Source: a virus
IMG/VR virus record: IMGVR_UViG_3300030107_005633
Location: 1-25,538 of that record
Strand: one strand, 5' to 3'
DNA: 25,538 bases
Shown: positions 2,230 through 25,538 of the stretch, one piece after another
Layout of the letters: each line of letters begins with the position of its first letter
How positions within the stretch are numbered: position 1 is the stretch's first letter
The notes under the pieces: model-generated
The model's input: only the letters and a program-made list of their open reading frames with translations
The model's database searches: none
What the model was told of the DNA's origin: nothing
Made by a program: the position numbers and the translations under genes

Positions 2230-2445
2230 ATGTTCATTCTCCTCTGCTTTGCCTGTAGTGCCCTCGCCGAAGAAGCCCCCGGGGAAGACACGGCCGCTGA
2301 ACAGTTGACCGACCAGATGGTCGAGATCCGTGAACGTCTTGAGAGGCTCGCAGAGGACGAAGCTGTCGAGGGAGATGAAACCGAAACAACCCCGGCCGAA
2401 GAGGTCGAGGTTGTTGGAGAAACGGTCATTGTCGTTGAGGGTTAA
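2230..2445 (+). CDS. Small exported acidic protein
   Basis: 71 residues behind a GAGG SD. Residues 1-13 form a short hydrophobic signal sequence (MFILLCFACSALA) ending in an ALA motif suited to signal peptidase I cleavage before EEAPG. Two Cys occur, but they do not form a good lipobox. The mature part is very acidic, with a predicted helix (LTDQMVEIRERLERLAEDEA). It could partner the preceding membrane coiled-coil protein as an outer spanin-like or periplasmic factor. Its TAA stop overlaps the stop of the convergent regulator gene. Confidence 0.65.
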   Translation: MFILLCFACSALAEEAPGEDTAAEQLTDQMVEIRERLERLAEDEAVEGDETETTPAEEVEVVGETVIVVEG

Positions 2446-2720
2446 CGGTGCTTGCGAGCATCGATACGCGCATCCTCTCCGTGGTCAACGAGTAAAACAA
2501 GCCAATCACCGTAAGTTTTCGGTTCTCCGTCGATGACCTTGACCGAGAAGGCCTTGGCCAAACCTTTGACGTGACGGATTGTTGGTGTGCGGCGCGCGTT
2601 CTCGAGCCGACTAATCTCGGGTTGCGTGATGTTGGAACGGCGAGCAAGTTCGCTCATGCTCCAACCTCGTCCTTGTCGGCAGTACTTAACGAGGCGGGAG
2701 AACTCTGACGGTTGAGACAT
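2442..2720 (-). CDS. XRE/Cro-CI family transcriptional regulator
   Basis: 92 residues from the ATG at 2720, preceded on the minus strand by GAAGGAGG with good spacing; the frame remains open further upstream but has no comparable start. The N-terminal half is a lambda-repressor-type HTH: LVKYCRQGRGWSMSELARRSNITQPEISRLENARRTPTIRHVKGLAKAF, including the recognition helix TQPEISRLE and the P-T-----LAKAF helix 5. There is no protease or dimerisation domain, so it resembles Cro more than CI. It is divergent from the early operon and has a back-to-back promoter. It probably binds the 112-base intergenic region to control itself and the helicase operon. Confidence 0.9.
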   Translation of the reverse strand: MSQPSEFSRLVKYCRQGRGWSMSELARRSNITQPEISRLENARRTPTIRHVKGLAKAFSVKVIDGEPKTYGDWLVLLVDHGEDARIDARKHR

Positions 2721-2750
2721 GTGGACCTCCTTCTGTCGATGTCTGATGAC

Positions 2751-2779
2751 AGGGTAGTCTAACGATGTCATGTCGTCAA
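2751..2779 (-). promoter_or_regulatory. Putative promoter of the XRE regulator
   Basis: On the minus strand TTGACG (2774-2779) is followed 17 bases later by TACCCT (2751-2756), giving a good -35 and a weak -10. An imperfect dyad TGTC-N4-GACA (2740-2751) touches the -10 and is a plausible operator. The -35 box is part of an inverted repeat (GTCAA at 2775-2779, TTGAC at 2788-2792) shared with the plus-strand promoter. Confidence 0.5.
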
Positions 2780-2787
2780 GTTTTAAG

Positions 2788-2816
2788 TTGACAGCCTGAC
2801 CTAACTCCCCTATTAT
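2788..2816 (+). promoter_or_regulatory. Near-consensus sigma70 promoter of the early operon
   Basis: TTGACA (2788-2793), a 17-base spacer and TATTAT (2811-2816) closely match the sigma70 consensus. The expected transcription start near 2823 leaves only about 10 bases before the helicase ATG, just enough for the GGAGG SD at 2824-2828. It faces the regulator promoter, with -35 boxes 8 bases apart, so one bound repressor could block both. Confidence 0.82.
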
Positions 2817-2832
2817 TCGGCGCGGAGGTAGC

Positions 2833-4686
2833 ATGTTCAAACAACCAAGATTCAAGTACTATATTCACTCGGGACCTCGAAGCCTTTATCGACTTGAGAC
2901 CTTAGTTCCGGGGTGCCTCGTCTACGGTCGGTACGCAACCCAACGAGGCAGACTGGAGCACCTGATGGGGGACGGAAACGTCGAGATAGAAATTCTTGCT
3001 CCCGTCCACGGAGCTTGGTTGGTCGAGCAGTGGCTGACACACTTCGGTGTCAGCTCCTACGCAGATCAGATTGGCCCCGCCATCGACACTTGGGCATCCG
3101 TACCAAAGGGTGACCGTGCGGCAGAGGGGCGCAGACTTGTTGAGTCGAATCCAGAGATACGGTCGCATGTTCCAGACCTCGCAACCAACTACCAACTGGC
3201 CAACGTACAGTGGGCCAGTACGCGCCCCTGGGTGCTCAATCTCTGGGCCTGCGGTAGCGGTAAGACTCTGGGGTCCCTGCTTGCGTCTCTGACGACTCCT
3301 GGGCCTGTTCTGGTCGTGTGTCCGGCCAAGGCCCGTCATGTGTGGTGGAGTCAAGTTCAAGAGTACACACACATCAAGCCGTACCGTATTCGCCCTGTGT
3401 CGGAGCAGCGTAAGGGCCATGTCCCGCTAGACCAATATCTCATGGAGTGTACCCAAGAGGGGACAAGACCCTTTGTGATTATCGGGTCCGAGAGTTTGGC
3501 TGACAATTTTGAGACGGTACAGTTGGTCTCACCTACGGTTCTTATCTTCGACGAGATCCATACGCACGGCTCGGCCAAACGCTGGACCGCAGTTGAACAA
3601 CTCGATGGTGAGGTCAAGTTCAAGAAGCGCAAAACTTCAGGTGGAAACCGACACACCCGATCTGTCGCAGCGATGGATGCATCTAGGTTATCCAGTGTTA
3701 AGCTTCGCATTGGGTTGACAGCAACCCCTCTCGATGATGGCCGACCCCGACGTTTGTGGAGCCAACTGGATTTACTTGTACCCGGCGGGTTCTCTCATTC
3801 GTATCGCCGCTTCGCAGAGAGATTCTGCGATGCAAGGCCCAGTCCTTGGGGCGGTATCGACGACAAAGGAAGCAGCAACCTTGAGGAACTCCGCGCACGG
3901 TGTTCGTTCTTCACACATGAAGTACCATACTCTGAGAGTCACTCAGAGCTGCCCGCCACTCGGGTGCAGGTCATGTATCTGTCTCACACAGAACTCAATC
4001 GAGCCGGTCGGTTCAGTGATGACCAGACATTCGGGCAGGCCATGAAAGCCATGGCAAAGCAGAAAGGTCTGGCGAAAGAGAGAATGGTTGAGTCTCGACT
4101 TGCTGAAGCGTGCTCAAGGAAGCGTCGGTTTGTCATCGAAGAAGTTCTCGAAGGTCTCCAAGGTGGCGGTAAGGTCGTGGTATTCACCGCCAGACGCCGA
4201 GAGACAGAGGTCTGGGCCCATGAGTTGAAGAAGAAAGTGGGTCGAGGCGATGAGACGGCCGGGATGAATGCGCCTGTCTGGATGGCCCACGGTGGTGTGC
4301 CCGAGTCTGAGCGCGATAACATCATCGAAAAGTTCCGGCAGTCCGATGGTCCCTGCTGCTTGGTCGCAACCGGTCAGTCTGTGGGTACAGGTGTCGATGG
4401 TATGCAGACAAGTGACCTCGCCATCTTTGCAATGCTGCCGTGGAAGCCCGGAGACTTTGTCCAGTGGAAGGGACGGTTCGACCGGTTGGGTGGTCGGGCC
4501 ACTCTCCTCAAGGTCGTGGTGGCACAGGGCACCTACGATGAAAGAGTCGTTGAAATCTTGACGGACAAATTTGGGCCGATTGAAACGTTTTTAGCCGCTG
4601 ACGAGCTAAAGGGACTTGATACTAAGCTCCTCGGTATCGAGGATGAACAGTCGCTCATCGACGATTTTCTTGCATCGTTAAACTGA
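2833..4686 (+). CDS. SF2 (SNF2/DEAD-like) helicase
   Basis: 617 residues; the ATG is preceded by GGAGG. ATP-dependent DNA translocase or helicase motifs appear in order: Walker A ACGSGKT (about 139-145), motif II DEIH (240-243), motif III LTATP (295-299), a C-terminal RecA lobe with KVVVFTARR, and motif VI QWKGRFDR (544-551). The first 120 residues precede the helicase core and may bind DNA. Phage members of this group open replication forks or remodel recombination intermediates. It is the first gene of the early operon and is followed by nuclease, RecA-fold ATPase and SSB genes. The exact subfamily is uncertain. Confidence 0.93.
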   Translation: MFKQPRFKYYIHSGPRSLYRLETLVPGCLVYGRYATQRGRLEHLMGDGNVEIEILAPVHGAWLVEQWLTHFGVSSYADQIGPAIDTWASVPKGDRAAEGRRLVESNPEIRSHVPDLATNYQLANVQWASTRPWVLNLWACGSGKTLGSLLASLTTPGPVLVVCPAKARHVWWSQVQEYTHIKPYRIRPVSEQRKGHVPLDQYLMECTQEGTRPFVIIGSESLADNFETVQLVSPTVLIFDEIHTHGSAKRWTAVEQLDGEVKFKKRKTSGGNRHTRSVAAMDASRLSSVKLRIGLTATPLDDGRPRRLWSQLDLLVPGGFSHSYRRFAERFCDARPSPWGGIDDKGSSNLEELRARCSFFTHEVPYSESHSELPATRVQVMYLSHTELNRAGRFSDDQTFGQAMKAMAKQKGLAKERMVESRLAEACSRKRRFVIEEVLEGLQGGGKVVVFTARRRETEVWAHELKKKVGRGDETAGMNAPVWMAHGGVPESERDNIIEKFRQSDGPCCLVATGQSVGTGVDGMQTSDLAIFAMLPWKPGDFVQWKGRFDRLGGRATLLKVVVAQGTYDERVVEILTDKFGPIETFLAADELKGLDTKLLGIEDEQSLIDDFLASLN

Positions 4687-7427: not shown

Positions 7428-7538
7428 TTCCTGCCCCATTGGGGGCCGAGTTCATGGAAGTCGTGCTTGGTCGGTCGGTCTAGCACATGCTTACTCCGCT
7501 TCCGCGAACTTCGGTCCCCTTTTTCTTTTGGTTGTGTC

Positions 7539-10253
7539 ATGTCCTGCGACCCCACAGAACTGGGTGCCCTCTGCGACCAATGCCCCCTCGGTCCGCGCGG
7601 AGTCTTTCGTCCTGACTTCTTTCAGCCCGTTCTACCTGAACATCGCGGTGCAGCCAAAACTCTCGTCGTCACCAATAGTCCGACGATGGACGACGAGAGA
7701 GAAGGACGGCCTTTACAGGGTGCCTCAGGTCAAGAACTGACCTCTGCCCTCCACCGTGCCGGTCTTCGGCGCAAAGACGTTTCCGTCACACCTGTGATTC
7801 TCTGCCGCCTACCGGGTGCCGCAGCAGGTGCATGGAAACGACTCAAACGAAAACTTGACGCGACAAACAAGAAGCGCGCGGAGATGGGGGCCAAGCCCAT
7901 CCTCCCGCCGACGCACTACTGCCGCCCACGTCTCCTCAATGACCTCGCAAAGTACAAGCAGGTTGTCCCGTTGGGTAAGATTGCTACGCAAGCTGTGACA
8001 GGCTCAGACGCCTCTATTGAGCGAACACGCGGTGACCTCATCTTTGTCAGCGCAGAGATGCGCCGGACGTTCAAGCGAGATGAGGCGGTCTGGAAGGTGG
8101 TGCCTGCAATGCACCCTGCGACCACGCTCCGCTCTCCAGCATGGAGACCTGTCCTCGTGGCGGACCTACAGAAAGCAGACCGCTGGTTCAACGGTCGGTT
8201 ACGCTGGTCCAAACCCGAAACACTGTGGCGACCCACACCTCAGGAACTACGCGACTGGTTTGCACGGGACGAACCGTTCTGGGCGTATGACCTTGAGACT
8301 GACGGCATTCACACCAATAAGTGTAATGTTCGGACGATTGCCATCGCTACACCGGACAGCACACTTCATGTGTCTCAGGCGGTGGGTCTGTCTTTCCTAT
8401 CTACTGACGGGCACACTCGGTTCTACGAACCAGAGGTCGAGGCCGAGATATACGACATCCTTCGTGGCGCATTCACAGACGGACGTATCTGGGTGGGGCA
8501 CAACGCCGGCTATTTCGACCGCAAAGTCGTTGAGACCTGGCTGGGCGTGACTCCACACCCCATCGTCGACACACTGTTCGGCGCACGGTTTCGAAGCCCG
8601 GATCTGCCCAAGGGACTGAAGACCGTCGGGTCCATTCTCACTGACGTAGAGCGGTGGGAGACCACAGAGAAGGGGACCAAGATCGCAACAGGTTCCGAGG
8701 ACGATGATGAACTTCTCAAGTACAACGTCATCGATGCTGTGGTCAACGTCAGGATCACGAGACCCCTGTTGACAGATGCAGATGAGGTCGGTGCGTTCCG
8801 TCCCCTCAGCGAGGACATCCGACCACCGGGCTGGCCCACTGACCGGGCATGGAATCTCTGGGAGGTGGACCACCACACCCAAGAGATGTGCGTCGAAATG
8901 AACAAGAACGGTGTTTGGATCGACCAGAAGAAAAGGTTCGAACTGGAAGTTGAGTACGAGCACTCTGTCATCCAGCGAGAGAAGCGCATCCGTGAACTGG
9001 GCGATGACCTGTCCCCCGGCTCCTACGATCAGATCCGACATCTGCTTTATGAGAAGTGGAAGCTGCCGATTCCTCCAACGATGGATGCCCGAGAGTTTTA
9101 TACCGACACCGGGCTGCCCGGCACAGACGACAACGTGCTCCGTGCCCACATGGCAGGTGGTCTGTTGTCAGAGAAGCAAGCTGCGTTCATCCGTGAGCTT
9201 CGATTGTTTCGTCGAGAGAAGAACAAGATCCTCGGCACGGTCCTCATCCCCCTGCGGACCAGAGAGGAAGACCCAAAGAAGGGGTTGGTCTGGGAAGATG
9301 GACGAGTTCGAAGTACGTGGAACGCCCATGTCACGAGCGTCGGTCGTCTCTCCAGCAGCGGTCCAAACCTCCAGAACATCGGGAACCGGAAGGGCCAGGG
9401 CCGACTCAAGTCTGTCTTCGCAGCACCACCGGGACGCATCTTCGTGGGTGCTGACCTTGACCAAGCGCACTTGAGGATCACAGCAAACTACTGGAAGATC
9501 CCTCGTTTGCTCGAGTGCTTCGAGAAGAACCTCGACCCACACGGACTGCTCTGCCAAGACATCTTCGGCAAAGACTATGAGAACGCAGATGGTTGGGGAC
9601 CCGAAGGGTTCTCCGTCGCACGCAAGCCGCCCAAGGGGAAAGCCAAGAGTATGCGTGACGTCATGAAGACGTTCCGGTACGCCAGTATCTACTGGGCAGA
9701 TCCCAACACAGTCTGGCGTGTACTGACCTCGACCGAGACGGACGATGCACAGTTGCCCTACGCAAATATGACCAGCCGCCAGGTCAGAACATTTCACAGA
9801 CGCTGGCTCAAGGCCGAACCCGAGTGGCTCCAAGCGTGGCAGCTGATGCTCAATATCTTTGCGGCTCAGGGCTATATCGAAGAGCCTGTCATGGGTCGAC
9901 GGTCTGGCGGACTGAGCGACGGAAAGAAGAACGAAGTCGTGAACTTTCCCATTCTTGCTGCCGAATCAAGCCTGATGCGTATCGCTGAGATTCGAATCCG
10001 CGATGCGTTCCCTTACGAATTTGCCGGCCCTGGGACCGGAATGATCCACCAGTGCCACGACTCGATAGCCGTCGAGGTGCCGCTGCCTCCAGGGTGTGAC
10101 CCACTCTGGAAGCCCAAACGTGGTGAGCCTCTGCCGCCGACGCTGGAGCACTGGAAAAACTTGGTCGAGGAGTGCATGACTGTCCGGGTACCCGGATGGC
10201 CTGTCGTCCTTACCTCAGAGGCCGATGTCGGCCGAACTTTGAAAGATGTATAG
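7539..10253 (+). CDS. Family A DNA polymerase with N-terminal UDG-like Fe-S domain and 3'-5' exonuclease
   Basis: 904 residues from ATG 7539; an earlier in-frame TTG (7467) is less likely, although no clear SD precedes either. Residues 1-220 resemble a family 4/5 uracil-DNA glycosylase: C12, C15, C89 and C128 are placed like the four Fe-S ligands, and MHPATTLRSP (191-200) matches the HP motif. The catalytic GEAPG box, however, reads TNSPT (45-49). A DnaQ-type exonuclease follows (DLETDG 251-256, GHNAGYFD, YNVIDAV). The polymerase domain has motif A DLDQAHLR (D639), motif B RDVMKTFRYASIY (706-718) and motif C HDS (840-842). It is the phage replicase. C-terminal motifs leave no doubt about the polymerase part. 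Confidence 0.95.
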   Translation: MSCDPTELGALCDQCPLGPRGVFRPDFFQPVLPEHRGAAKTLVVTNSPTMDDEREGRPLQGASGQELTSALHRAGLRRKDVSVTPVILCRLPGAAAGAWKRLKRKLDATNKKRAEMGAKPILPPTHYCRPRLLNDLAKYKQVVPLGKIATQAVTGSDASIERTRGDLIFVSAEMRRTFKRDEAVWKVVPAMHPATTLRSPAWRPVLVADLQKADRWFNGRLRWSKPETLWRPTPQELRDWFARDEPFWAYDLETDGIHTNKCNVRTIAIATPDSTLHVSQAVGLSFLSTDGHTRFYEPEVEAEIYDILRGAFTDGRIWVGHNAGYFDRKVVETWLGVTPHPIVDTLFGARFRSPDLPKGLKTVGSILTDVERWETTEKGTKIATGSEDDDELLKYNVIDAVVNVRITRPLLTDADEVGAFRPLSEDIRPPGWPTDRAWNLWEVDHHTQEMCVEMNKNGVWIDQKKRFELEVEYEHSVIQREKRIRELGDDLSPGSYDQIRHLLYEKWKLPIPPTMDAREFYTDTGLPGTDDNVLRAHMAGGLLSEKQAAFIRELRLFRREKNKILGTVLIPLRTREEDPKKGLVWEDGRVRSTWNAHVTSVGRLSSSGPNLQNIGNRKGQGRLKSVFAAPPGRIFVGADLDQAHLRITANYWKIPRLLECFEKNLDPHGLLCQDIFGKDYENADGWGPEGFSVARKPPKGKAKSMRDVMKTFRYASIYWADPNTVWRVLTSTETDDAQLPYANMTSRQVRTFHRRWLKAEPEWLQAWQLMLNIFAAQGYIEEPVMGRRSGGLSDGKKNEVVNFPILAAESSLMRIAEIRIRDAFPYEFAGPGTGMIHQCHDSIAVEVPLPPGCDPLWKPKRGEPLPPTLEHWKNLVEECMTVRVPGWPVVLTSEADVGRTLKDV

Positions 10254-20460: not shown

Positions 20461-21026
20461 GAGCGCACCTCACGCAGGGCAAGTAGGGCCTGACGGGCAT
20501 CGTCAGGGGTTCGGTGTCCGTACTCATCGTTGATGTTGGCTGCGTCGAATAGACGGATACCCGTACCGACGTAGCGAACAGCGGCCTCATCCCCTACCTC
20601 AATGACTTGAGTGGGCTCAATCGTCATGGGGTCGACAGCACAGACCCAGACATGGGGGATCCACACGTTGCTCTCGAACAACGCCCACCCATGGTAGAAT
20701 CGGAACGACTTCATGGTGTCGACGTTGTTTTGGAACATCTCTTCGTCAGTCAACTCACGACCAATCCGACGACGCTCTGTCTCGTACGTGAGAAACATCT
20801 GGCTTTCCAAGAACAAGTACATGCATTGTTGGATGTCATGTGACCGTTGGGGCTGATGCTTCACAGGGATCGCTGAGTCTTTGAGGCGTCTGAATGACTG
20901 TTTGACTTCCACAGTCTCGGGAACCTTCTCGTGTACAACGGCGATGCCGCCCAGCCCCATGAGGAACTCAGAGATATCGGCACGAGTAAGCGGTGTACGA
21001 CGGTTTTCGGATCTGATCTCAAGCAT
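20457..21026 (-). CDS. Hypothetical phage protein
   Basis: 189 residues from ATG 21026, five bases after CGGAGG; a longer frame to 21119 lies inside the upstream gene. The region YHGWALFESNVWIPHVWVCAVD, ending PMTIEPTQ, resembles a small-protein pattern in which a G-A segment precedes an H-W strand and a D-PT turn, seen in uncharacterised phage proteins; no catalysis is proven. N-terminal LTRADISEFLMGLGGIAVVHEKVPE and a helical middle (QQCMYLFLESQMFLTYETERRR) complete it. It overlaps the preceding gene by 8 bases. Confidence 0.78.
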   Translation of the reverse strand: MLEIRSENRRTPLTRADISEFLMGLGGIAVVHEKVPETVEVKQSFRRLKDSAIPVKHQPQRSHDIQQCMYLFLESQMFLTYETERRRIGRELTDEEMFQNNVDTMKSFRFYHGWALFESNVWIPHVWVCAVDPMTIEPTQVIEVGDEAAVRYVGTGIRLFDAANINDEYGHRTPDDARQALLALREVRS

Positions 21027-21528
21027 TGTTGCCTCCGTTCTTTGGAAAGTATTTGCGGTAGCGTGTCTTCTTACAGGTGGGTTGGTCGTCACGACGACCT
21101 GCTCGGTTGTTCCAACCACGGCCGTGTTTTCGGGTCGTTTGTTCTTCGGACCAACCAGCAGCTTTCAGCGAGGTGCCCGGCTCCGAATCGAGGATGTATG
21201 TTTGGATGAAGTGGTACCCCATGGCCTCTGCGGCTCGGGCTGCCCGGGCATACAGGAACGAGCAGACATTGTAGGTACCGTCTGTCGCCAGACGTGTGAC
21301 CTCCAGCGCCCATGTCTGGTCGACTGCCCGGGCTACCGGACGACCCGAGATGATGACACCGCAGGTGACCCACTCGTCACCGTCGAGACGGTCACAGGCC
21401 ATGGCCCACTTGAGTCCCTGAGGAACTTTGTGGTGCCGGTGCAGTTCTGCCACGATAGACTTGGCCTCTTTGAACGAGCAGGGGCGGGCCCTGAGTTTGG
21501 GTTTGGGGGTGTGTTGGTTCATGTTCAT
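21019..21528 (-). CDS. XF1762-family protein (GNAT-like fold)
   Basis: 169 residues with a GGAG SD; the start overlaps the upstream stop (ATGA). It carries the family pattern SFKEAKSIVAELHRHHKVPQG, then GVIISGRPVARA, then WALEVTRLATDGTYNVCSFLYARAARAAEAMGY, then YILDSEPGTSLKAAGW. Phage XF1762 proteins are conserved, usually near replication or methylation genes, and look like GNAT acyltransferases. The substrate is unknown. The C-terminus is basic (KKTRYRKYFPK). The family recognition is good; a biochemical role cannot be read from sequence. Confidence 0.88.
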   Translation of the reverse strand: MNMNQHTPKPKLRARPCSFKEAKSIVAELHRHHKVPQGLKWAMACDRLDGDEWVTCGVIISGRPVARAVDQTWALEVTRLATDGTYNVCSFLYARAARAAEAMGYHFIQTYILDSEPGTSLKAAGWSEEQTTRKHGRGWNNRAGRRDDQPTCKKTRYRKYFPKNGGNNA

Positions 21529-22180: not shown

Positions 22181-22243
22181 ATTGTTTTATGTGGTTACAC
22201 TGTATAGTATCTATGATAAGACCCATTGGACCTATCAAAAAAC

Positions 22244-22262
22244 GTAACCACTTGGTGGTTAC
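22244..22262. repeat. Perfect palindrome GTAACCAC-N3-GTGGTTAC (site 2)
   Basis: A perfect 8-bp dyad with a 3-base centre ends 17 bases before the small terminase ATG. Its right arm is part of a 13-base direct repeat, GTGGTTACACTGT, also present at 22191-22203. Binding here would block ribosome access or transcription of the terminase gene, so autoregulation is plausible. Confidence 0.75.
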
Positions 22263-22279
22263 ACTGTGAGGATGACTCT

Positions 22280-22825
22280 ATGAAAGATCCCAATAAACCT
22301 TCGTTCTTGCGCAACCCATCAAGCGGTTCTCTGAAAGAAGAGTTACAACCGGCACAATTGACGGTCGTGTCTCCGAAGGAATCTGAGGTTGTTGAGATGC
22401 TCGCAGAAGAGAGTCTGTACAAAGACAATCGTCAGGCCAAACAACTGGTCACTCGATTGCTTGAAAGCGGGTACACCGTCGCCGCTGCGGCGCGACGGGT
22501 AGGACTCAGGGCGAGCACCGTCTGGCGCTGGTCGAATGAACCGCAGGTGCTCCAGGCCATCGAGGCTGGGAAGATGAGACGACGCAGCATACTGGGTCAA
22601 GGACTTGAAGAGGCGGCCGAGGTGGCCCTGACTGCCCTAACGGATGTGGCAGGTGACCCAGGTGTCGCTCCAAAGGACAGAGTTCAGGCAGCACAGGCTA
22701 TACTGGATCGGTGTGGGATCACACCCACTAAACAGGCGGAGGCAGGGACGGCCGTGGCTGTGTCAGTCGATGTTGATTTTGACGAACGCTTGGCGCGCAT
22801 TGTCGCAGCCCAACAAACCCACTGA
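22280..22825 (+). CDS. terS: Small terminase subunit-like DNA-binding protein
   Basis: 181 residues from ATG 22280 (GAGG eight bases upstream); a longer frame from 22226 would run across the palindrome and has no SD. An HTH at about 65-86 (YTVAAAARRVGLRASTVWRW) is followed by helices and the segment VAPKDRVQAAQAILDRCGI, characteristic of many phage small terminases. The C-terminal tail ends FDERLARIVAAQQ. TerS recognises packaging sites and recruits the large subunit. The palindromic region just upstream is a natural candidate binding site. The large terminase is not in this window, which is unusual. A related HTH regulator is the alternative. Confidence 0.78.
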   Translation: MKDPNKPSFLRNPSSGSLKEELQPAQLTVVSPKESEVVEMLAEESLYKDNRQAKQLVTRLLESGYTVAAAARRVGLRASTVWRWSNEPQVLQAIEAGKMRRRSILGQGLEEAAEVALTALTDVAGDPGVAPKDRVQAAQAILDRCGITPTKQAEAGTAVAVSVDVDFDERLARIVAAQQTH

Positions 22826-22836
22826 GGAGAGAGAAA

Positions 22837-23208
22837 ATGCACGGAAAATACCCCACCGGAGGCGGATGCCCCATGTCTGATGCCAGGATGACAGCCATGG
22901 GAGACATGCACCCCGATTTCTCAGGGCCGAGTTACACCCAAGCCAAACGTATCATGTTGGTGGTTGGTCCGGAAGAGAATGATGAAGATTATGGGCCCGA
23001 TGAGACCGAGCCGACCGTCGGGATACTCGACGATCTGTCCGCAATGGCTGACAAATTGTCACAGAGTTCCGAACTACACGCCAAACAGGCCGACCGACTC
23101 CGACAGATTGTCAGTGAGTTGGAGCAGTCAGAGGTCGGACCAGCGGACCAGCCGGCCGAACCGGATGAGGACACCCGCCGGCTGACGGAAGGAACACCAC
23201 TGGACTAG
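22837..23208 (+). CDS. Acidic hypothetical protein after small terminase
   Basis: 123 residues with GAGGAG upstream. The N-terminus is GK/M-rich (KYPTGGGCPMSDARMTAMGDMHPDF), then SYTQAKRIMLVV. A long helix with coiled-coil character follows (SAMADKLSQSSELHAKQADRLRQIVSELEQSE). The C-terminus is acidic and disordered. Very acidic overall. The helix suggests oligomerisation or a scaffold-type role; no family was recognised. It is probably cotranscribed with terS. Its stop is embedded in the first hairpin of the structured region. Confidence 0.75.
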   Translation: MHGKYPTGGGCPMSDARMTAMGDMHPDFSGPSYTQAKRIMLVVGPEENDEDYGPDETEPTVGILDDLSAMADKLSQSSELHAKQADRLRQIVSELEQSEVGPADQPAEPDEDTRRLTEGTPLD

Positions 23209-23480
23209 TGGTCCGACCAGATGTGCTCTTCGAGCATATGCCCCTTTCCCCCTGGGATACCAGGCGGCAGCTGCCCGCCGGCCGACAACCTCGTACCCCC
23301 GCCGGCACTGGACCAGCCAGCCGGCCGACCGACTTCGGGGGTGAAGGTGCTTCACCCCGCCAAGGGGTGAACCAGGGTCACCCCAGCTGTACCTGGTACA
23401 GCTTTCGCGTGGGCGCTGCGACCACGCGGTGTCCGAGGGTCCGTGCTACCCCGGGTCTGATGACCCGAGGTGCGCGCGGT
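23197..23480. ncRNA. Structured multi-hairpin element A (candidate RNA)
   Basis: There is no coding region between 23209 and 23479; instead a chain of hairpins is seen. Stems: 23197-23211 (5 bp), 23209-23219 (4), 23224-23236 (5), 23251-23264 (5), 23263-23279 (5), 23301-23325 (9 with a bulge), 23338-23358 (9), 23364-23384 (7), 23385-23403 (up to 9), 23406-23428 (7) and 23452-23467 (6). The segment 23337-23446 is homologous to 25217-25320. No U-tract ends any stem, so these are not classic terminators. Strand of transcription is unknown. On the minus strand it would be the 3' region of the 122-residue gene. Confidence 0.6.
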
Positions 23481-23848
23481 TACATGTACGAAAGTAGTTT
23501 GTGCACTGTTTGAAGGTGTACACTGTCGGTCTCCGAGTCCCCATCTTCAAAGTGTTGCTCCATCTCTTCAAGAAACAACTTGACACGGGCAAGTAGGACT
23601 TGACGAAAGAAGTCGGCCTCTCTATCGAGTTTGTTTAGTAGAGAGATTTGCATCTCATAAGATACAATATCGTCGGTACGCACTCGGATTTCTTCCACGA
23701 TATCTTCGGTCGTGTGGTTTTCAACCAAGTAACGACCAAAGGATGTAGGTGACAAAATAGATTCGAGGTCACAAGTGGTAGCGTCTTGATGTTCGAGTTT
23801 CCAAGACTCAAGGCAACGAAAAAGAATAGCGATTTCAATTGGTGTCAT
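23480..23848 (-). CDS. Hypothetical helical protein (cassette gene 3)
   Basis: 122 residues. It is acidic and almost entirely helical: IEIAILFRCLESWKLEH, TEDIVEEIRVRTDDIV, SLLNKLDREADFFRQVLLARVKLFLEEMEQHF. Its visible composition is more AT-rich than the replication genes, which may indicate different ancestry. Its start overlaps the zinc-ribbon gene by 14 bases and its SD is weak, implying coupled translation. Element A begins right at its stop codon. No function is recognised. Confidence 0.7.
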   Translation of the reverse strand: MTPIEIAILFRCLESWKLEHQDATTCDLESILSPTSFGRYLVENHTTEDIVEEIRVRTDDIVSYEMQISLLNKLDREADFFRQVLLARVKLFLEEMEQHFEDGDSETDSVHLQTVHKLLSYM

Positions 23849-24059
23849 TGTCTATCCGTTGTTTGGGTTGCGACGGTGTGGACGGTGTCGAGGGTTGGTT
23901 CGGAACTTTATGATTATCATGCTTACTCCAGAGGGATTGACCGCATTCGGTACAGGTTGGGTGTGATTTGGGTGTCGGTTTAACGAACGCCCATGGTTCG
24001 AAGTGGTTACAAGACATGCAGCCGATACGCCACATGTCAGGATAATAGTTACGGATCAT
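23835..24059 (-). CDS. Small zinc-ribbon protein (cassette gene 2)
   Basis: 74 residues. Two CxxC pairs (CMSC near residue 14, CTEC near 36) separated by about 20 residues make a zinc ribbon, and the tail is Ser/Pro/Thr/Gln-rich and disordered. The start overlaps the stop of the upstream 292-residue gene (ATGA) and has little SD, so it depends on coupling. It may bind nucleic acid or a protein partner encoded in the cassette. Confidence 0.7.
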   Translation of the reverse strand: MIRNYYPDMWRIGCMSCNHFEPWAFVKPTPKSHPTCTECGQSLWSKHDNHKVPNQPSTPSTPSQPKQRIDNDTN

Positions 24060-24934
24060 TCGGCGGACTGTAAGAAGGCACCGCCAATACCGTTCCGTGC
24101 CTTACCTTTGGGAGCAAGTGCGCAGATAACCCCGCCATCATAGAACCGCGCGTCATGTTCGTCACCGTCGACAACGGGGACACCGCGCCACGTGCCACGA
24201 TCCAACACGGTCAATACGTCCGCTTTGGATCGGAAAACAACGGCCACGGGTCTATCGGCCTCAAGGTACCGTTGCGCCTCGGACCATGATCCGGGTTTCT
24301 CAGAGAGGGAGAAAGTTAGTTTGTAGTTGCTTGGAAGGTTCTTCCGATAGCGCAAGGGGAACTTAGTGTAGTCGTAAAAATCGACCTCAGGGTAGTCTGT
24401 CATGATCGCGCGCATGGCAGGGTGTTTCTCCCAACGGTTGTCCGATGTACCATTGCCGCGGACTTGCGCCTTGAATCCGCCAGCCCGCGCACGACGCTGC
24501 AGGGTTTCGACATCCGCACGATACAGCGCAGCAAAGCCCTTGCGGTAGGCTTGCCATAGGACGGTTTTACGTGCGCGGCCGATGGGTACCGAAGGTGAGA
24601 ACCCGCCATGACCCGCAGTGTCAAGGCATGCCGCGCGGCAACCATCCGACGCCATAGGACAGAGGTTCGTTCTCATGAGACGCGCAAGGTTTGCGCCCGT
24701 GACGTATTCGTCACGCCAGCGGATATCTTGCCCGGTCTTCTCCCACAAGTCCAGCAACCGCGCGACCTTATCGGCGGGTGACATGTACATAACGCCCGTG
24801 AGAAATCCCTGTTTCTCGCCTTTACGTGTCTTTGCGTCGTTTCCGACGGCCAGCAGATAGTAGCCGTTGTTTTTCGGTAGATACTGTGGAAGATCGCCTG
24901 ATGCTTGGAGGTCTTTAATAGTTGGTCGGTCCAT
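24056..24934 (-). CDS. Phage Cys-cluster protein, GP88-like/DUF7227-like (cassette gene 1)
   Basis: 292 residues with AAGGAG six bases before ATG 24934. A segment LCPMASDGCRAACLDTAGHGGF puts Cys at 92, 99 and 103 (C-x6-C-x3-C), followed by ARKTVLWQAYRKGFAALYRADVETL. Then come VRGNGTSDNRWE, VDFYDYTKFPLRY and TFSLSEKPG. I recall this order (Cys cluster, R-T/W helix, R-NG-SD, FYDYTK) from phage 'gene product 88' type proteins of unknown function; the name is from memory. The cluster might bind Fe-S or zinc. It has a dedicated consensus promoter. Confidence 0.72.
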   Translation of the reverse strand: MDRPTIKDLQASGDLPQYLPKNNGYYLLAVGNDAKTRKGEKQGFLTGVMYMSPADKVARLLDLWEKTGQDIRWRDEYVTGANLARLMRTNLCPMASDGCRAACLDTAGHGGFSPSVPIGRARKTVLWQAYRKGFAALYRADVETLQRRARAGGFKAQVRGNGTSDNRWEKHPAMRAIMTDYPEVDFYDYTKFPLRYRKNLPSNYKLTFSLSEKPGSWSEAQRYLEADRPVAVVFRSKADVLTVLDRGTWRGVPVVDGDEHDARFYDGGVICALAPKGKARNGIGGAFLQSAE

Positions 24935-24963
24935 GATTCTCTCCTTTGTTGAATCACTCTACT

Positions 24964-24992
24964 CTAATAACCAACCTGTCATAGTGTGTCAA
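24964..24992 (-). promoter_or_regulatory. Sigma70 promoter of the three-gene cassette
   Basis: On the minus strand TTGACA (24987-24992), a 17-base spacer and TATTAG (24964-24969) make a strong promoter. Transcription should begin near 24957, giving a 23-base leader with an AAGGAG SD. A GTGGTT block immediately precedes the -35 and matches part of the GTGGTTAC half-sites near terS. Confidence 0.75.
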
Positions 24993-25092
24993 CCACATAG
25001 GGTAGGTATTTTGAGATCGCCCTTACCCCATACCGCAGGTACCTACTGCCTTATGCGACAGCTCTCACAGCTGACTTAGTACCTGTGTTATC

Positions 25093-25338
25093 GGGGAGGG
25101 TCGACGCTTCCCGTGTTGTGGGTGCTCCCCGCAACACATACGGCCGTCAACATGCAGCACCTTGAGCAGGTCCGAAGGACCCGGCCGGCTCAACCGGCCG
25201 GCCCAGAGCCTGGGCCGGGGGTGAACCTTCGTCACCCCTAAGGGGGTGATGGTTAATCACCCCAGCTGGGACAGCTTCGACTGACGGGGTCGGACCCCGC
25301 CGCGTTGGCGAGGTCCGTGCCGGTGCTATGCATACTGC
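25093..25338. ncRNA. Structured multi-hairpin element B (candidate RNA)
   Basis: The stretch 24935-25338 holds no gene. From 25093 a possible pseudoknot occurs: GGGGAG 25093-25098 with CTCCCC 25125-25130, interleaved with GTGTTG 25113-25118 and CAACAC 25132-25137. Then come hairpins at 25169-25181 (5 bp), 25181-25201 (8), 25200-25216 (7, overlapping), 25218-25238 (7), 25243-25263 (7), 25264-25276 (5) and 25285-25299 (6). The conserved CGAGGTCCGTGC lies at 25309-25320. It matches element A in order and orientation. On the minus strand it follows the partial gene that ends at 25339. Confidence 0.6.
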
Positions 25339-25538
25339 TTAAGCATTATCGGCCTCGCGGATCTCGTTGTAGGCATAGCCCCAAATGTCAGCGGGGACAC
25401 TATGTCCGTAGTACTCACGGACCACGTCAAGCCACTGTTCAAGGCAGAGCAGGTGGATCACGTTGTAAAGGTACTCGGTATTCGCTGCGGTGTTGACAGC
25501 AAACCAGTGACGAAGGGAAGGATGCCCGTTGTATTTTT
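25339..25538 (-). CDS. 3' part of a small phage gene (DUF7249-like), truncated by window end
   Basis: The minus strand is open from the window edge to a TAA at 25339-25341 and encodes at least 65 residues with no start inside. The N-terminal part (KYNGHPSLRHWFAVNTAANTEYLYNVIHLL) follows the YNG-S---W-V----N---LY pattern of small phage proteins that I associate with DUF7249. WLDVVREYYGHSVPADIWGYAYNEI follows. Few residues should be missing. Function unknown. Its stop directly abuts the structured element B. Confidence 0.65.
   Translation of the reverse strand, partial: KYNGHPSLRHWFAVNTAANTEYLYNVIHLLCLEQWLDVVREYYGHSVPADIWGYAYNEIREADNA

Follow-up and report, generated by a model that had tools for sequence, protein, structure and literature searches.

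Two clusters of short hairpins, A and B, in the DNA of a marine-type phage seem to be noncoding 3'-end or terminator elements that lack a U-tract and mark the ends of transcription units, a reading to which we assign a probability of about one half on the basis of sequence and position. Both elements represent an atypical form of the already published class of U-less hairpin clusters. The window, that is, the whole stretch of DNA that was analysed, is the complete IMG/VR record IMGVR_UViG_3300030107_005633 of 25,538 bases and constitutes a phage fragment. In a preliminary description the two elements had been put forward as a candidate new structured RNA; the hairpin clusters are real and were correctly observed, and were over-read in that respect. 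In 25 of 43 related phages, the place of A is taken by a small candidate RNA gene, detected with a covariance model termed R1, and this gene is more novel than A and B themselves.

Genomic context

The gene content of the window includes a family A DNA polymerase, a Mom-like protein, a metallophosphoesterase, the terminase small subunit (TerS) and a GP88-type gene. The polymerase (7467-10250, plus strand) has a uracil-DNA-glycosylase-like domain fused to its N-terminus (Pfam PF03167, 1.3e-12), and the Mom-like DNA modification protein (phrog_1384, 1.4e-29) is encoded at 21022-21528 on the minus strand. TerS (22226-22825, plus strand; phrog_2538, 1.1e-06; relatives 46-54% identical) is followed by a small gene (22837-23208, plus strand) that is syntenic in relatives (best E 8e-12) and is the last plus-strand gene ahead of A. 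Around the start of TerS there are GTAAC/GTTAC palindromes, at 22244-22262 in the window and just upstream of TerS in L091, L092 and L096; for the window copy, a T-run comes next on the minus strand (22265-22241).

As had been described before, A and B bracket a cassette of three genes, all on the minus strand. These encode a GP88-type protein of 292 amino acids (24056-24934; Pfam PF17338, 8.5e-35; phrog_1617), a protein of 74 amino acids recognized from ORF tiling and sequence, with CxxC pairs that look zinc-ribbon-like by eye (23835-24059), and a protein of 122 amino acids (23480-23848), for which a family search of Pfam and phrog gave no match. A promoter-like sequence, TTGACA-N17-TATTAG, which was found by consensus match and begins with TTGACACACTA, is located upstream of GP88 (24964-24992, minus strand), and an RBS-like AAAGGAGAG precedes this gene. 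B is found upstream of the promoter-like sequence, behind the next minus-strand gene, of which the translated C-terminal 65 codons (25339-25536) have no family match. Both copies thus do lie behind the ends of minus-strand genes, A about 33 nt past the stop at 23480 and B about 18 nt past the stop at 25339.

The relatives found through the DNA polymerase are phages with records as long as 74 kb, in most of which the polymerase is about 60% and TerS about 50-55% identical. In these phages, TerS and the homologue of the small gene at 22837-23208 face a convergently oriented block of minus-strand genes, and it is this gap that is occupied by A in the window, where the adjoining minus-strand block is the three-gene unit of GP88 and the 74- and 122-amino-acid genes. 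GP88 is absent from all 25 polymerase relatives searched, and the two records that do have it were retrieved only with the GP88 query itself. In two relatives, the accessory minus-strand block contains a tRNA gene (L094:4942-5025, plus strand; L086:4937-5020, minus strand); the window has none.

Organization of A and B

Read on the plus strand, the core of A (23337-23446) consists of hairpin 1 (GGGGTGAAG-GTG-CTTCACCCC, a GGGGTGA/TCACCCC dyad, 23338-23358), hairpin 2 (GGGGTGA-ACCAGGG-TCACCCC, 23364-23384), hairpin 3 (AGCTGTAC-CTG-GTACAGCT, 23385-23403) and hairpin 4 (CGCGTGG-N9-CCACGCG, 23406-23428), followed by the tail CGAGGGTCCGTGC, which reaches 23446. In the core of B (25217-25320), hairpins 1 and 2 are GGGGTGA/TCACCCC dyads (25218-25238 and 25243-25263), hairpin 3 is AGCTG-GGA-CAGCT (25264-25276), hairpin 4 is CGGGGT-CGG-ACCCCG (25285-25299), and the tail CGAGGTCCGTGC reaches 25320. 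Every hairpin named in the preliminary description is found in its place, and the cores have the extents given there. Both arrays are longer, with an extra 9-bp hairpin abutting B (CCGGCCCAG-AGC-CTGGGCCGG, 25198-25218) and another beside A, towards the minus-strand gene (CGGGTC-TGAT-GACCCG, 23452-23467), which was read from the sequence and is present in the computed fold. A possible kissing interaction of hairpin 1 with hairpin 2 (GGU/ACC in A, ACC/GGU in B) would comprise 3 bp only and lie partly within longer stems.

The exact dyad GGGGTGA-N7-TCACCCC occurs four times in the 25.5-kb window, twice in A and twice in B, and these four shared dyads are far above the chance level. With up to three mismatches allowed, the window contains 7 matches versus 1.67 expected, and none of 100 shuffles reaches 7. 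The fold z-scores of A and B range from -4.1 to -5.1 over both strands, with none of 200 dinucleotide shuffles being as good. In hairpin density over stretches of 120 nt, A (score 37) and B (score 23) are the top two of the window; in 889 kb of related phage DNA the highest score is 25, below that of A.

A and B are direct, only partly similar repeats. In the three shared hairpins, 19 of the 19 base pairs are identical to the letter, and there is therefore no covariation between the two elements. In the alignment, 11 of the 14 letters of the dyad centres differ while the 38 arm letters are invariant, and each of the four dyads has a spacer of 7 nt, in spite of the variable length of the other loops. 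The shared stems are thus kept by identity and not by compensatory change. Such change had been proposed for the fourth stem, which has 7 bp and a 9-nt loop in A versus 6 bp and a 3-nt loop in B, so that the two cannot be aligned pair by pair and the proposal falls. When the minus strand of B is folded, a different hairpin, CGGACCUCGCC/GGCGGGGUCCG, is preferred over the fourth stem.

No match to the core pattern of A and B exists in 2.9 million viral contigs of IMG/VR, and no homologue was found among annotated phages (INPHARED) and plasmids (PLSDB), where blastn gave only short, insignificant pieces. The DNA-polymerase relatives are without a copy of either element. Comparison with Rfam 15, which had been suggested as a check, yielded nothing at the gathering threshold and only chance-level matches in a permissive search. 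Two pattern matches in 84,980 GTDB genomes were discarded, both being located within coding genes and corresponding, by our own estimate, to about the rate of chance. Because none of the databases searched gave a homologue, a new RNA family is unsupported for A and B, and with covariation absent as well, the idea of a new structured RNA with compensatory stems lacks support for these two elements.

A looser scan for tandem dyads returned ten other viral contigs, which were rejected as homologues, being iteron-like arrays with near-constant centres. In L106, L107 and L109-L112, tandem GGGTGA-N7-TCACCC repeats are found in helix-turn-helix genes that resemble replication initiators, an identity read from their translations. 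These arrays have the half-sites and the 7-nt spacing of A and B, in tandem; they are mostly coding, with a centre that is nearly constant within each array, whereas the two elements of the window are intergenic, have unrelated centres and possess additional hairpins. The arrays show that other viruses employ the GGGTGA/TCACCC half-site in iteron-like repeats, and they are unrelated to A and B.

Role at the ends of transcription units

In the work of Gupta and Pal (2021), clusters are made up of short hairpins less than 15 nt apart, poly-U is unnecessary, and 98% of the correctly identified sites are located at most 80 nt from a stop codon (PMC8355165). A and B each contain at least two short hairpins (stem of 2-10 bp) separated by less than 15 nt, and on the minus strand both lie within this distance of about 80 nt from the stop codon; from A to the stop of the plus-strand operon it is about 129 nt. 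On neither strand is A or B overlapped by a terminator-like site that has a U-tract, in agreement with what had been stated. The conclusion that had been drawn from this, namely that plain terminators do not explain the elements, is valid for the type with a U-tract and had left out of consideration that U-less hairpin clusters are a published class of terminators (PMC8355165). Like its members, A and B comprise several closely spaced hairpins near a stop codon in the absence of a U-tract, and A sits between converging genes; unlike them, they are two copies with invariant dyad arms and a constant spacer, known here from their sequence. The same paper describes the V- and X-shaped classes of WebGeSTer among terminators of this kind, and its reference list includes Ingham et al. 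(1995) on early terminators of phiC31 without poly-U. To judge from that entry, the phiC31 terminators are likewise phage inverted repeats at transcription-unit ends without poly-U, a likeness at the level of description. The terminator activity of U-less hairpin clusters rests largely on prediction matched to RNA-seq.

Termination or protection of the transcript would be the most likely function of A and B. The GC-rich hairpins may fold one by one behind RNA polymerase as it leaves the gene; once folded, they would help to free the polymerase, and the mRNA would keep a structured, nuclease-resistant 3' end. In this manner, B would end a minus-strand unit entering from the right, after which the new, putative promoter (24992-24964, minus strand) would drive the GP88, 74- and 122-amino-acid genes. 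A would end the cassette unit and, because its hairpins form on both strands, might also end the converging TerS operon on the terminase side. Given the positions of the stop codons and the promoter-like sequence between B and GP88, the cassette looks like an insulated accessory unit, with each element ending one unit. The alternative of a 3'-UTR stability or processing element, as raised in the preliminary description, agrees with position and structure and overlaps with our preferred reading, its effect on transcripts being only inferred.

Some observations count against a role at transcript ends. The plus strand of B folds better than the minus strand, though the gene of B ends on the minus strand, and the invariance of the arms, with differing centres and a fixed 7-nt spacer, exceeds what structure alone requires. 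Confidence in this role is moderate, partly because recognition of the sequence accounts for invariant arms better than structure does by itself. In favour of the role, the corresponding gap of related phages is closed by a GC-rich hairpin with a minus-strand U-run, which together form an ordinary terminator. U-less hairpin clusters are widely predicted as terminators and rarely tested. Two natural, near-matched copies located where neighbouring transcription units end would provide a clean test bed, and their invariant arms raise the question of whether sequence or structure is decisive.

Alternative readings

The main rival to a 3'-end function is that a dimeric protein of phage or host binds the GGGGTGA-N7-TCACCCC dyads in DNA (or RNA), in the manner of an operator or iteron, the hairpins being a by-product of symmetry. 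Among the phage's own proteins, candidates for such binding would be the helix-turn-helix proteins encoded at 2442-2855 (minus strand) and 22226-22825 (plus strand). It stays alive because the arms are invariant and the spacer is constant, identical as they are in four copies with free centres; the recurrence of tandem arrays in unrelated viral contigs, several of them within helix-turn-helix replication-type genes, also speaks for it. These arrays, however, keep their centre nearly constant, unlike the dyads of A and B, for which the centres differ and the near-exact sites in the 25.5 kb are limited to the four. Moreover, protein binding leaves the AGCTG, CGCGTGG and CCGGCCCAG hairpins and the placement at gene ends unexplained, and on balance we regard it as unlikely. 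It had also been envisaged that A and B delimit a mobile cassette; the cassette might equally be recombination-borne, with the two copies as direct repeats used for insertion. The bracketing of three genes in direct orientation and the lack of GP88 in the polymerase relatives are in keeping with it. Nevertheless, the two copies are direct, with partial similarity only, instead of terminal inverted repeats, and the scanned cassette genes 1 and 3 (GP88 and the 122-amino-acid gene) belong to no recombinase family. A promoter-like sequence of its own, and an element B that goes with the end of the gene before it, are also what a common accessory unit of transcription would show; overall, we hold mobility to be highly improbable.

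According to a further reading, the two elements belong, in diverged or remodelled form, to the small-RNA family that occupies the same convergent gap in related phages. A is at the syntenic place of the R1 gene, and the order on the minus strand agrees: 5' hairpin, linker, small hairpin, strong hairpin. Of the R1 linker GTCAGTCCGAA, B has GTCAGTCGAA (25276-25285, minus strand; core motif GTCAGTC-GAA), which resembles the conserved linker GGTCAGTCCGAA of the relatives, and A has none. The window contains no other match to GTCAGTCC?GAA, and 1 of 2000 shuffled A/B sets has one, for a motif that was picked after seeing B; one exact GGTCAGTCCGA lies inside a gene at 1543, by chance. The TTGACACACTA with which the cassette promoter begins is present in 7 of the 20 relatives searched, once each, and in six of the seven it is at the RNA gene. 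On the other hand, the R1 covariance model, run with filters off, gives no hit to either element at E values up to 10. A promoter directly upstream, as in R1, is lacking (best scores 6 for A and 8 of 12 for B, without a TTGACA-like -35), there is no U-tract as is found in most R1 members, and the strong hairpin is unrelated in sequence to that of R1. As regards location, on the minus strand where the TerS operon ends against converging genes, A agrees with R1 and B does not, and the R1 copy of one relative itself lies elsewhere. With a negative model set against position, order and GTCAGTCGAA, membership of A and B in R1 is not claimed, and a diverged link is a possible, minority reading that we hold to be rather improbable. 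It could be imagined, with as little probability, that remodelled R1 copies, with the GP88 cassette between promoter and RNA body, became paired, sequence-constrained 3'-end elements of mRNAs in place of a free small RNA.

A candidate RNA gene in related phages

The R1 sequences appear to represent a genuine, conserved and previously undescribed RNA gene of the related phages. The covariance model finds it at 25 of 43 TerS loci (E < 0.1), each time on the minus strand; many of these contigs overlap with those used for training, and for the six weakest matches the E values range from 0.0007 to 0.098. The predicted RNA of about 75-100 nt is located in the convergent gap, for example at L153:4447-4541, L147:4482-4575, L151:4470-4563, L154:4357-4457, L166:4446-4522 and L173:4377-4453. 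Its modules are, in order, a TTGACA-like promoter, a 5' hairpin GACC..GGTC, the conserved linker AGTCCGAA, a small hairpin that is not always present and, last, a terminator-type GC-rich hairpin whose loop is rich in pyrimidines, next to which a U-run is found in most members. The loci that hold R1 match no Rfam family.

In a MAFFT alignment of 11 members, 97.8% of the cells pair and 6 of 13 pairs are changed on both sides. None of 500 shuffles reaches the covariation score, a comparison in which relatedness is unmodelled and the structure comes from this very alignment. For 9 of the 11, folding is better in the minus than in the plus sense. A -35 box TTGAC (or TTGGC) is positioned at -37/-38 in 17 of 22 loci, and the promoter scores above random windows (p about 1e-12, uncorrected for relatedness). 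One relative, G012, carries an R1 copy about 7 kb from TerS (L188:1785-1863, minus strand), with a TTGACACACTA promoter of its own; since this copy is so far away, R1 would not merely be the terminator of the TerS operon. With its promoter at a fixed distance, beside TerS, R1 makes a concrete candidate for a new regulatory RNA encoded by phages.

A scan for the linker that required extra bases after GAAA gave chance matches apart from one known R1 member. A target search among the relatives gave a lead in one subclade, where the pyrimidine-rich loop of R1 could pair with the ribosome-binding site (GGAGAGA or GGAGAGG) of the gene behind the DNA polymerase. One position covaries (L025, L026 and L055 versus L035 and L037); the site, by the polymerase stop codon, is partly coding, and other subclades do not fit.
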